Of a stretch of DNA of 64,000 nt, positions 15,480-45,941 are shown one piece after another; the first letter of the stretch is position 1, and the number at the start of each line of letters is the position of its first letter. The notes beneath the pieces were generated by a model. The model saw only the letters and a program-made list of their open reading frames with translations. It was not told the origin of the DNA and made no database searches. The position numbers and the translations under genes are program-made. This DNA comes from Thermoflexus sp. (lineage in GTDB: Bacteria > Chloroflexota > Anaerolineae > Aggregatilineales > Aggregatilineaceae), in contig DYGX01000005.1 of NCBI GenBank assembly GCA_020724465.1, positions 186,001-250,000 on the forward strand. The letters are read 5' to 3'.

Positions 15480-16810
<1,331 letters not shown>

Positions 16811-16817
<7 letters not shown>

Positions 16818-16980
16818 AAGCAGCAGTGAAGCAGCTACAGGCAGCAAAGAACAGCCAACAGCAGCAAACGGCAGCGAAATGCAGCAGGGCGATCGAGGCG
16901 GTCGCCCTGCTTTCGCCTCCGCCTGTTGCTGAAAAGCGTTCTTTTGCTCTTGGGCTGTTCTTAAGCTGCTTTTCTGCTGC
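16811..16980. repeat. Array B of 10-nt repeats with inverted arms
   Basis: Eight CAGC-type units start at 16811, 16821, 16832, 16842, 16852, 16862, 16872 and 16882, a period of 10 to 11 nt. They form the left arm, and the hisS stop codon lies in the first unit. A perfect hairpin sits in the centre. The right arm (about 16945-16980) has three to four inverted GCTGYTTNTN-like units and is more degenerate. The array occupies the whole gap between convergent hisS and the DinB gene. Confidence 0.8.
16884..16910 (+). terminator. Hairpin between hisS and DinB gene
   Basis: A perfect 9-bp stem (GCAGGGCGA at 16884-16892 and its complement at 16902-16910) with a 9-nt loop is followed by TTTCGCC. It is suited to end transcription of hisS and possibly of the converging gene, but the T-tract is short. 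Confidence 0.55.
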
Positions 16981-16991
16981 TCTTTGCCCGG

Positions 16992-42474: not shown

Positions 42475-43821
42475 ATGCAGCCTATCACTCGCACCCTGGC
42501 GACGCTGGCTCTGTGTCTTGTTCTGCTTGCCGGGGCGCGGGCCGGAACGGCCCCCGCCCAGGACCCCGGCCCCTACACCCCCGGCCCGACGTTGGGGCGC
42601 GGATTGTTGCGCAGCGTCGCGTGGAGTCCGGACGGCGGCGCGATCGCGGCAGGCGGCGCGCTGGGCATCTGGCTCTACACGCCCGAACTGGACGATCTTG
42701 GCCGGCTGCAAGGGCACACGCGCGCGGTTTACGATCTGGCGTGGAGTCCGGACGGGGCGCGGCTGGCGAGTGCCAGCCACGATCTGACGGTGCGCGTCTG
42801 GGATCGGGCGACGCTGGCCGAGCAGTGGACGCTCGAAGGGCACACCGACCTGGTGATCGCGGTGGCGTGGAGTCCCGATGGGCGCACGCTGGCGAGCGGC
42901 GGGCACGATGGGACGATCCGGCTGTGGGACCCGGCGACCGGCGTGCCCGGCGCGGTTATCGACGCGGAGCAGGGCTGGGTCACCGATCTGGATTTCAGCC
43001 CGGCGGGCGACTGGTTGCTCAGCGCGGGGCAGGATGGGACGGCGCGCCTGTGGGACGCGGACACGCTCGCCCCAGGGATGCGCCTCGATGCCGGAAGCCC
43101 GCTCAGCGCCGCGCGGTTCAGCCCGACCGGCGCGCAGATCCTGACCGCGAGCGCGGATGGCACGCTGCGGGTGTGGGATGTGGCGTCCGGCGAGCTGCAG
43201 TATGCCGGGGTGCTGCATCCCGGCGGTGTGGCCGACGCGGCGTGGAGTCCGGCGGGCGGCGTGCTGGCCGCGACGTGGCGGCTCGGCGGCGGGATGGGCG
43301 CGCTCGATATCTACGCCCCGCAGAGCACGGGCGACGCGGCGAAGCCGCTCGGCCATATGGTCGGCCACCTGGGCGACCGGCTGAGCTGGTCCCCACAGGG
43401 CGATCTGATCGCGGCGCTCGGCTGGGATTCGATGCTGAGCGTGTGGAGCGCCCTGGCCTGCGCGCCGAAGCTGTACCGCTTCGAGCACACCGACTGGATC
43501 ACGGCGGTCGGCTGGAGCGCGGACGGCCAGCAGGTGATCGGCGTCAGCAGTGACGGGCTGGCGCGCCGCTGGGATGCGGCGAGCGGGGCGCTGCTTGGCA
43601 CGTCGGTGTACGAGCCGGTTGAGCCGGCGGCGGATGCGCTCCGCCCGGATGGGGCGCGGCGCGCGGTTGCAGGTGCGGACGGCGTCGCGATCCACGACAC
43701 GGCCAGCGGGGTGCTGATCGCGCAGTTGCCGGGCGCGGCCAACGCCATCGCGTGGAGTCCGGATGGGATGCGGCTGGCGGTCGCCCTGCGCAACGGGACG
43801 ATCCGCATCTGGGAGGAGTGA
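42475..43821 (+). CDS. Secreted WD40 repeat protein
   Basis: The 448-residue protein starts with a signal peptide (MQPITRTLATLALCLVLLAG) and has about eight to nine WD40 repeats marked by VAWSPDG, LASGGHDGTIRLWD and similar segments. The repeats are encoded by near-identical DNA around each AWSPDG turn (GCGTGGAGTCC), suggesting internal amplification. It overlaps the next gene by 1 nt (TGATG). Likely an exported scaffold. Confidence 0.88.
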   Translation: MQPITRTLATLALCLVLLAGARAGTAPAQDPGPYTPGPTLGRGLLRSVAWSPDGGAIAAGGALGIWLYTPELDDLGRLQGHTRAVYDLAWSPDGARLASASHDLTVRVWDRATLAEQWTLEGHTDLVIAVAWSPDGRTLASGGHDGTIRLWDPATGVPGAVIDAEQGWVTDLDFSPAGDWLLSAGQDGTARLWDADTLAPGMRLDAGSPLSAARFSPTGAQILTASADGTLRVWDVASGELQYAGVLHPGGVADAAWSPAGGVLAATWRLGGGMGALDIYAPQSTGDAAKPLGHMVGHLGDRLSWSPQGDLIAALGWDSMLSVWSALACAPKLYRFEHTDWITAVGWSADGQQVIGVSSDGLARRWDAASGALLGTSVYEPVEPAADALRPDGARRAVAGADGVAIHDTASGVLIAQLPGAANAIAWSPDGMRLAVALRNGTIRIWEE

Positions 43822-44828
43822 TGAGCCTGCGAGGGCGTGTGAGCTGGTTCGAGGCGGTCGCGCTGGTGGCGCTTGGCGCGGCGGGGGCGCTCGTGGTGGC
43901 GGGGCAAGCCAGCGCCGTGGCCCTGATCGCGCTGCTGGTGCTGATCTACTTCGTGTGGATGGCGCGGGGCATGATCGTGCAGGCGCGGCGCTACCGGCCG
44001 GTCGAGCCGCCCGGCACATGGGCGATCACGCTGTGGGCGAATCTGGCGCTGACGGCGCTGGGGCTGGGCGCGTTCGGCTGGTATCTGGCGGGCGGGGGTG
44101 TGCGGGCGTGGGTCCCGTTTCTGATCTTCATCGCCGGGGTGATCGCGTTGCGCTGGTGGCGGCGCGGCGTGGTCGCCCGGTTGTATAGCTGGCGGACGCC
44201 CGCGCTGGTGTTGCTCCAGCAGGGCGAGTATCGCAAGCTGGTGCGCGAGCTGGAAGCCGAGGCGACCGCCGGGCGCGGTCACCCGGACAAGCTGGCGATG
44301 GTTGCCCTGGCGTATATCGAGCTGAACAAATGGGATCGGGCCGGCGCGCTGCTGGAACAGGCGCGCGCCCTGGCGCCCGATTACGCTTCGGTCAACGGGG
44401 CGCTCGGCTCATTGCGACGCCACCAGGCGCGCTACGCCGAGGCCGCCGATGCGCTGGAGCGCGCGCTGCGCTTTGAGGACAGCGCCAACACACGCTATTA
44501 CCTGGGGCTGTGCCGCTTCCTGGCCGGGGACTACGCCGCCGCCCGCCCCGCGCTGCAAGCTGCTCTGGCCGACCCCACGCTGCTGCGCACCGGCCAGGTG
44601 TACGGCGCGTTTGCGCTGGGGCAGATCGCGGAGAGCGAGGGGGACGCCGCTGCCGCGCGGGCCTGGTACGAGCGCATGGCCGAGGCGGCGCCGAAGGCGC
44701 TCCCCGTGCTGGAAGAAGAAGCGCGCCGCCACAAACAGACGCCCTACGGCGACACGCTCAAAGAGCACGTGCGCGCCATGCAGCGCATCATCGCGCGCCG
44801 CCCGCTTGAAGAAGCAAAAGGCAGCTAG
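43821..44828 (+). CDS. Membrane protein with C-terminal TPR repeats
   Basis: The 335-residue protein has two transmembrane pairs (about 10-50 and 65-110). A cytoplasmic-type TPR array follows (about 125-310: AMVALAYIELNKWDRAGALL, ANTRYYLGLCRFLAGDYAAA). Likely a scaffold working with the preceding lipoprotein and propeller. Its stop codon TAG falls inside repeat array C. Confidence 0.8.
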   Translation: MSLRGRVSWFEAVALVALGAAGALVVAGQASAVALIALLVLIYFVWMARGMIVQARRYRPVEPPGTWAITLWANLALTALGLGAFGWYLAGGGVRAWVPFLIFIAGVIALRWWRRGVVARLYSWRTPALVLLQQGEYRKLVRELEAEATAGRGHPDKLAMVALAYIELNKWDRAGALLEQARALAPDYASVNGALGSLRRHQARYAEAADALERALRFEDSANTRYYLGLCRFLAGDYAAARPALQAALADPTLLRTGQVYGAFALGQIAESEGDAAAARAWYERMAEAAPKALPVLEEEARRHKQTPYGDTLKEHVRAMQRIIARRPLEEAKGS

Positions 44829-45030
44829 AATCAGCAAAGAGCAGCAAGGAACAGCAAGGAACAGCAAAGAACAGCGAGGAACAGCAAGGAACAGCAAAGA
44901 GCAGCCTGTTTCTCGCTGTTTCCAGCCGCTTATAGCCGCTTATAGCTGCTTATAGCTGCTTTTGGCTGTTTTTGGCTGCTTTTAGCTGTCTCTGGCTGTT
45001 TTTAGCTGCATCTCGCTGCTTTTGGCTACA
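44821..45030. repeat. Array C of 10-nt repeats with inverted arms
   Basis: This is the clearest copy. Nine consecutive 10-nt units of RCAGCAARGA type (44821-44910) are followed without spacer by twelve units of TTTNGCTGYT type (44911-45030), the complement of the left arm. Period is exactly 10 nt throughout. The arms can pair into a hairpin of up to about 90 bp with mismatches. The upstream gene's stop lies in the first unit, and the downstream gene's ribosome-binding site begins right after the last one. Confidence 0.9.
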
Positions 45031-45047: not shown

Positions 45048-45941
45048 ATGGCAACGGTGGGCTATATCGGCCTGGGGATCATGGGCGCGTCGATGGCGCG
45101 CAACCTGATGAAAGCCGGGCACACGCTGGTTGTGCACAATCGCAGCCGCGCGATTGTCGACAGGCTGGCAGCGGAAGGGGCCGTCCCCGCCTTTTCCCCG
45201 CGCGAAGTGGCCGAGCAGGTCGAGTTCGTCTGCACCAACCTGCCGGATTCGCCGGATGTCGAGCAGGTCGTCCTGGGACCGGACGGCATCATCGAGGGCG
45301 CACACGACGGGCTGGTGTACATCGATAACAGCACCATCAAGCCGGAGACGGCACGCTACCTGGCCGGGCGCCTGGCGGAACGCGGCGTCCCGGCCCTCGA
45401 CGCGCCGGTGAGCGGCGGAGACATCGGGGCGCGGGACGGCACGCTGACGATCATGGTCGGCGGGCCGTACGACGCCTTCGAGCGCGCGCTGCCGCTGTTC
45501 GAGGCGATGGGCAGGACCGTCACCTGGATCGGCGAGAGCGGGGCCGGGCAGATCGCCAAAGTCGCCAACCAGATCATCGTGGCCGGCACGATGGTCGCCA
45601 TGGCCGAAGCGCTGGTCCTGGTGCAGAAGACCGGCGTCGATCCGGCGCGGGTGGCGCAAACCATCAGCCGGGGCGCGGCTCAGTGCTGGGCGCTCGACAA
45701 CAAGCCGCCCAAGCTGTTCAAGCGCGATCTGTCGCCCGGCTTCAAGGCGTACATGCAGGCCAAGGACCTGAAGATCGTGATGGACACGGGCCGCACCCAC
45801 CATGTCCCGCTGCCGCTGACCGCGGTGGCGCACCAGCTTTACGAGGCGATGGTCGCCATGGGCAACGGCGAGCTGGACAACAGCGCCGTGATCACCGTGC
45901 TGGAAGCGCTGGCCGGGGTGCAGATCGGCAGCGAGGGATAG
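45048..45941 (+). CDS. Beta-hydroxyacid dehydrogenase (3-hydroxyisobutyrate/tartronate semialdehyde reductase family)
   Basis: The 297-residue NAD(P)-dependent enzyme has the N-terminal GLGIMGASMARNLMKAGH dinucleotide loop, APVSGGDIGARDG substrate motif, and GAGQIAKVANQI with the catalytic lysine, then a helical C-terminal domain (KDLKIVMDTGRTHHVPLP). Substrates of the family include 3-hydroxyisobutyrate, tartronate semialdehyde and related acids; which one is not evident. AAGGAG precedes ATG 45048, immediately after repeat array C. Confidence 0.9.
   Translation: MATVGYIGLGIMGASMARNLMKAGHTLVVHNRSRAIVDRLAAEGAVPAFSPREVAEQVEFVCTNLPDSPDVEQVVLGPDGIIEGAHDGLVYIDNSTIKPETARYLAGRLAERGVPALDAPVSGGDIGARDGTLTIMVGGPYDAFERALPLFEAMGRTVTWIGESGAGQIAKVANQIIVAGTMVAMAEALVLVQKTGVDPARVAQTISRGAAQCWALDNKPPKLFKRDLSPGFKAYMQAKDLKIVMDTGRTHHVPLPLTAVAHQLYEAMVAMGNGELDNSAVITVLEALAGVQIGSEG

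Follow-up and report, generated by a model that had tools for sequence, protein, structure and literature searches.

An array of decamers downstream of a TPR protein gene

The DNA analysed here (the window, 64,000 nucleotides) contains a spacer between two genes on the same strand that is occupied over its whole length by tandem decamers. What kind of element is this, and what might it do? The initial annotation described 21 units at 44821-45030, nine purine-rich and twelve of the complementary type. TRF, direct reading and a PWM scan all confirmed this array, which the PWM placed at 44816-45024, reaching slightly further to the left. With a step of 10 nt, nine NARRRRCAGC units come first and twelve GCTGYYYYTN units second. 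The features of the locus are:

43821-44828, + strand: upstream gene, TPR protein (gene call, Pfam TPR)
44816-44905, - strand: purine arm, nine NARRRRCAGC units on the + strand (GCTGYYYYTN on the - strand) (PWM scan, TRF)
44905-45024, + strand: pyrimidine arm, twelve GCTGYYYYTN units on the + strand (PWM scan, TRF)
45048-45941, + strand: downstream gene, 3-hydroxyisobutyrate/6-phosphogluconate dehydrogenase family (ORF, Pfam NAD_binding_2 and NAD_binding_11)

The TAG stop codon of the TPR gene (44826-44828) falls within the second repeat unit (GCAGCTAG). The ATG of the dehydrogenase-type gene is found 23 nt past the end of the array, and an AAGGAG ribosome-binding site occupies part of this gap. 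Three successive units of the pyrimidine arm (44931-44960) read GCTTATAGC and carry a TATAG word each 10 nt; being just 5′ of the dehydrogenase gene, these words are possibly a promoter within the array.

Two further intergenic sites of the same family had been reported in the window, and the PWM scan identified both as bipartite arrays:

8-165, no strand assigned: second array, at least two purine units and ten pyrimidine units
15480-16817, + strand: histidyl-tRNA synthetase (HisRS) gene (Pfam tRNA-synt_His)
16794-16985, no strand assigned: third array, nine purine units and at least three pyrimidine units, degenerate

The purine arm of the array at 8-165 extends leftward beyond the edge of the window (G000:C10:185968). 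The array at 16794-16985 lies between convergent genes, and the stop codon of the HisRS gene is inside it.

Motif and genome-wide distribution

The PWM was trained on tandem pairs and represents the motif G C T G Y (T/c)(T/c)(T/c) T N. Decamer arrays are not a chance occurrence; approximately 150 positions in 850 kb exceeded a 3-unit score of 18, and none did so in shuffled or in reversed sequence. Over the whole genome (4.42 Mb, 56 contigs), three consecutive GCTGYYYYTN units were matched 265 times and the reversed pattern not once. The dispersed, intergenic 10-nt family with large inverted repeats that the initial annotation proposed is supported. Arrays were present in 32 spacers of the 1.64 Mb sampled, corresponding to roughly 85 arrays per genome.

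The step between units, taken over all arrays, was 10 nt in 650 cases, 11 nt in 30 and 9 nt in 8. The initial annotation related this step to helical phasing, which it may serve; tandem duplication of a decamer would produce it equally. The GCTG core and the T at position 9 were 93-99% conserved over 818 units, and the variable positions switched almost solely between C and T. Arrays had a median length of 160 bp, and the lengths of their arms varied widely and independently (r=0.2).

Several known kinds of repeat were compared with this distribution. The decamers do not behave as a DNA uptake sequence (DUS/USS), which is an exact word scattered singly, coding regions included. The single unit GCTGYTTNT was found 128 times in 850 kb against 83 times for the reversed word, and this excess came largely from the arrays. 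Fixed terminal inverted repeats, target duplications and near-identical copies, the marks of a MITE or other insertion-derived element, were not found; copies of the array had only the decamer motif in common, and their lengths and units differed at every site. A role based purely on A-tract curvature also seems unlikely, as T runs are frequent but C and T are mixed at each position of the tract.

Position and orientation relative to genes

Arrays were compared with flanking genes in two sets, using gene calls from a simple custom caller rather than a published one. The first set comprised 69 arrays of at least four units, drawn from two surveyed samples together with sites chosen by pattern, and the second comprised 17 more arrays from an independent 790-kb sample. 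The purine arm preceded the pyrimidine arm in 68 of 69 and in 17 of 17 arrays respectively (85/86 in all). Gene 3′ ends facing an array lay within 15 nt of it in 74 of 95 and 12 of 20 cases (86/115 in all), the corresponding figures for gene 5′ ends being 5 of 40 and 0 of 13 (5/53 in all). The stop codon often fell in one of the first two units. The intergenic inverted repeats of the initial annotation stand, to which the position at 3′ ends, the start at stop codons and the fixed order of the arms, all absent from it, have now to be added.

In the unbiased samples of the first set, arrays were found in 9 of 63 convergent spacers and in 7 of 388 others (P=6e-5); in the second sample the numbers were 5 of 54 and 11 of 400 (P=0.03). 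Same-direction and divergent spacers are far commoner than convergent ones, yet poorer in arrays. Ordinary hairpins were often present in the array-free convergent spacers of the same genome. The HisRS gene served as a flank for comparing the same 3′ site among genera: the sister species has an orthologous array at the HisRS 3′ end (L155), and another genus has a classic bidirectional terminator there, AAAAACGGGGAC...GTCCCCGTTTCG (L160).

A few arrays had a single detectable arm or lay between divergent genes, and two of the 17 clusters of the second sample were inside genes, where they are probably chance runs of codons. Several arrays, that of the window included, stop only 9-24 nt ahead of the next start codon. 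The possibility that arms are of two discrete types, oriented in a set way with respect to genes, was considered and rejected, no polarity being seen in tandem contexts. Arrays were also observed to run into coding 3′ ends (L126:4858-4933 and G000:C24:113154-113186). Proteins encoded at such array-invaded 3′ ends finish in repeat-encoded tails (e.g. SKEQQKAAKNS), with a stop codon supplied by a unit.

Predicted RNA folding

The long RNA stem envisaged in the initial annotation was also predicted here. The array of the window gave predicted folding energies of -97.0 and -85.7 kcal/mol on its two strands (z = -5.0 and -4.1), and the median z over 50 arrays (100 strands) was -6, with 98% of strands below -2. 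On both strands a GC-rich stem-loop is predicted just 3′ of the stop codon, as in an intrinsic terminator. A scan for consensus terminators found no site in the window array, and the stem is not followed by a long, uninterrupted run of U; what recurs each 10 nt in the array is a short Y/U tract, 4-5 nt in length.

For arrays between genes of the same direction, the sense RNA was predicted to be more stable than the antisense RNA in 17 of 23 cases (P=0.035), which may be taken as a modest sign of selection at the RNA level. A bias towards G.U over A.C pairs according to arm composition was not significant (P=0.12).

Mismatch between the arms of an array

If the stem were maintained base pair by base pair, the arms should covary, as the initial annotation had expected. 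The opposite was found: arms of the same array were significantly less complementary than arms paired at random. Identity between opposite arms at the variable positions was 0.445, compared with 0.504 (sd 0.009) when arms were swapped between arrays (P<0.001), and C frequencies at positions 5, 6 and 7 were negatively correlated between arms (-0.57, -0.68 and -0.69). The longest exact inverted match had a mean of 9.95 bp and a maximum of 17 bp, the mean for swapped arms being 12.45 bp; no match of 18 bp or more was found in 42 arrays, as against 10.3% of swapped arms. Both of the species tested showed the mismatch separately, as did convergent and same-direction contexts. Five new arrays showed mismatch in the same direction (P=0.05-0.06).

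SbcD is encoded in the genome of the window and in every genome of the family, and loss of SbcCD as a condition permitting long palindromes was accordingly rejected. The minimum stem for cleavage by SbcCD is 8-16 bp, and heterodimers of REP sequences have been proposed to be protected from SbcCD by mismatches (PMC3733652). This stem minimum and the presence of SbcD, together with the mismatch of the arms, suggest that perfect palindromes are purged from the arrays.

The main alternative to purging is that perfect hairpins drop out of short-read assemblies, so that their avoidance would be an artefact of sequencing or assembly. A sister-species contig does end within the orthologue of the window array (L219). 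However, none of approximately 34 inspected contig ends of the window's genome was in an array, the ends falling in other repeats, tRNA genes or plain sequence, and exact direct repeats of up to 56 bp within arms did assemble. The mismatch is also position-wise at the variable sites (r from -0.57 to -0.69 at positions 5-7) and is seen when G000 is taken alone. An artefact therefore appears improbable.

Conservation of sites and turnover of units

Synteny allowed 11 sister-species arrays to be located on the genome of the window, with a flank identity of about 94% (91-98%), and all 11 sites had an array in both species. Unit number and sequence were so divergent between these orthologous arrays that their alignment scores overlapped those of unrelated arrays; the decamers have been almost completely turned over at shared sites. 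Inversion of whole arrays between the sister species was rejected: three sites looked flipped, with alignment scores inside the null distribution for unrelated arrays. Exact direct repeats of up to 56 bp inside arms are the mark of recent tandem duplication. The retention of sites, the conserved core and the restriction of variation to C and T together suggest that selection acts on the motif and on how units are arranged rather than on exact sequence.

Taxonomic distribution

A two-unit pattern was found 55 times in the genome of the window. The remaining two genomes of the genus had 25 and 8 occurrences, and each of 58 genomes from other genera of the family and order had only 0-1. Among 84,980 GTDB species, the three-unit pattern occurred on several contigs only in one MAG, 'Anaerolinea sp.' (Tomsk_5_66_7). 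There was one match in an Anaerolineae MAG (SJ484), and the remainder were isolated matches in unrelated organisms. Judged from these pattern counts, the family appears to be essentially restricted to one genus of Anaerolineae-like Chloroflexota. Approximately 320 kb from four other genera contained no comparable arrays of any motif. A viral origin was also considered and rejected, IMG/VR giving two single matches only. The sister-species contig breaks within the orthologue of the window array (L219:1-110), and fragmented MAGs probably under-count these arrays.

Possible functions

The position at gene 3′ ends, the purine-first order of the arms and the strong predicted folding make a bidirectional terminator or 3′-end hairpin the best-supported role. 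We therefore favour, with a probability of about 0.57, the reading that the arrays are genus-specific bipartite 3′-end elements, each a bidirectional hairpin built from decamers and probably acting as a terminator, from which perfect palindromes have been purged. RNA made from either strand would contain the purine-rich arm first, as its 5′ arm, and the U-rich arm second. It would form a long stem with 4-bp CAGC/GCUG clamps every 10 nt and purine-pyrimidine steps between them. With the opposite arm order, which is essentially absent, the hairpin is equally good but the U-rich side comes first. Each decamer would place a short U tract behind the growing hairpin, giving a ladder of weak intrinsic terminators, and the array would halt RNA polymerase from both directions, prevent convergent read-through and form a cap at the 3′ end of the mRNA. 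Tandem duplication of decamers would let arms lengthen and shorten, and arm pairs that had become long perfect palindromes would disappear, for instance by SbcCD cleavage or replication slippage, so that mismatched arms remain.

The evidence against a terminator is that there is no long U run, that the arms anti-covary, that the sense bias (P=0.035) is weak and that some arrays are one-armed or lie between divergent genes. Where arrays end 9-24 nt before a start codon, a full terminator would leave too little space for a promoter behind it, and such arrays may attenuate transcription rather than stop it. We put forward tentatively a more specific form, a modular ladder in which each 10-nt repeat combines a clamp with a short U tract and is about as long as the RNA-DNA hybrid in RNA polymerase. 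Evolution would maintain arms that are complementary in motif but actively kept mismatched at the level of single positions, giving a functional RNA without a perfect palindrome in the DNA. If the arrays are terminators, this lineage has swapped ordinary terminators for a fast-evolving repeat architecture at dozens of sites. The many independent pairs of inverted arms form a natural experiment in which the limit on palindrome length (<18 bp exact) can be read directly, and a testable case of selection on RNA, which must fold, opposing selection on DNA, in which a perfect hairpin is not tolerated.

Much of the same evidence can be read at the level of DNA, as a BIME-like platform phased at about one helical turn and recognised by gyrase, a nucleoid protein or a genus-specific factor where convergent transcription accumulates positive supercoils. 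The convergent preference, the exact 10-nt alternation of GC-rich (GCTG) and AT-rich (YYYYT) halves and the dyad layout with its median of 160 bp would suit such a platform, and avoidance of exact pairing by the arms would imply that the RNA or cruciform stem is not itself the conserved thing. Gyrase sites have a GC% that is periodic to either side of the cut, and they occur in BIME-2 elements (PMC6379681). Their period of 10.75 bp (PMC6379681) is, however, close but not equal to 10.0, and it is stop codons, not a fixed spacing, that mark where arrays begin, with independent arm lengths (r=0.2). Better folding of sense than of antisense RNA in tandem contexts is not predicted for a DNA site, and the binding protein is hypothetical, leaving this reading rather unlikely.

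Selfish or neutral expansion, in which a slippage-prone decamer spread through permissive spacers and its position reflects tolerance of insertion, would explain the very fast turnover of units, the higher-order duplications within arms, the genus restriction and the lack of cargo. It is hard to reconcile with 93-99% conservation of GCTG and T9 over 818 units and variation almost only between C and T, with the fixed order of the arms, with the scarcity of arrays in the numerous same-direction and divergent spacers, and with sites that outlast their sequence, and we regard it as improbable. A Rho-dependent or RNase-targeted 3′ end, for which the pyrimidine arm and its periodic YC pattern would serve in loading or processing, is very unlikely. 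Rho is encoded in the genome and the 3′ arm is rich in pyrimidines at a regular step, but predicted folds pair this arm with the purine arm, two G's are kept in every unit, and other genera encode Rho yet are without arrays.

Comparison with known elements

The initial annotation knew of no described element with this structure. Consistent with this, Rfam gave no match in the window, and no published description of such decamer arrays was found in the literature searched, the coverage of which did not extend to subscription journals. The arrays share their position and presumed role with intrinsic terminators and with REP/BIME sequences, but fail the definition of each, in unit or U tract. Bidirectional intrinsic terminators between convergent genes resemble the arrays in their general pattern (PMC1590033): a 3′-end stem-loop, A- or purine-rich sequence before and U-rich sequence after the stem on both strands, and convergent preference. 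They differ in length (30-50 bp, compared with approximately 160 bp) and in their long U run; the arrays consist instead of two decamer blocks with imperfect arms, and their sequence turns over by unit.

REP/BIME sequences, especially heterodimers, are likewise dispersed, intergenic, 3′ of genes and arranged as inverted pairs (PMC3733652). REP units are palindromes of 20-40 bp, each with a GTAG or CGTC tag, whereas GCTGYYYYTN is a non-palindromic tandem decamer and the palindrome exists only between blocks. Genes for the Y1 transposase (Y1_Tnp, RAYT) are present in the genome, and to the same extent in genera that have no arrays. They showed no link to arrays and are not specific to the genus, which gives no support to mobilisation by RAYT. 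TAACTGA heptamers of Beggiatoaceae, cyanobacteria and Bacteroidetes (PMC4679880) are similarly lineage-specific short tandem units at many intergenic sites. These heptamers are invariant, lie mostly just 5′ of start codons and have no paired inverted blocks (PMC4679880), in contrast to the degenerate decamers found at gene 3′ ends.

A second interspersed repeat of approximately 100 bp (cccctcaccccaa..ctctccctcttgcgactgcgtcgcggggagaggggctttga) was noted in the course of the analysis. It was not enriched within the window. Copies were observed in convergent spacers at G000:C24:56156, C24:62959 and C24:154948, and one copy lay in the centre (loop) of a decamer array at L119:8080-8304.
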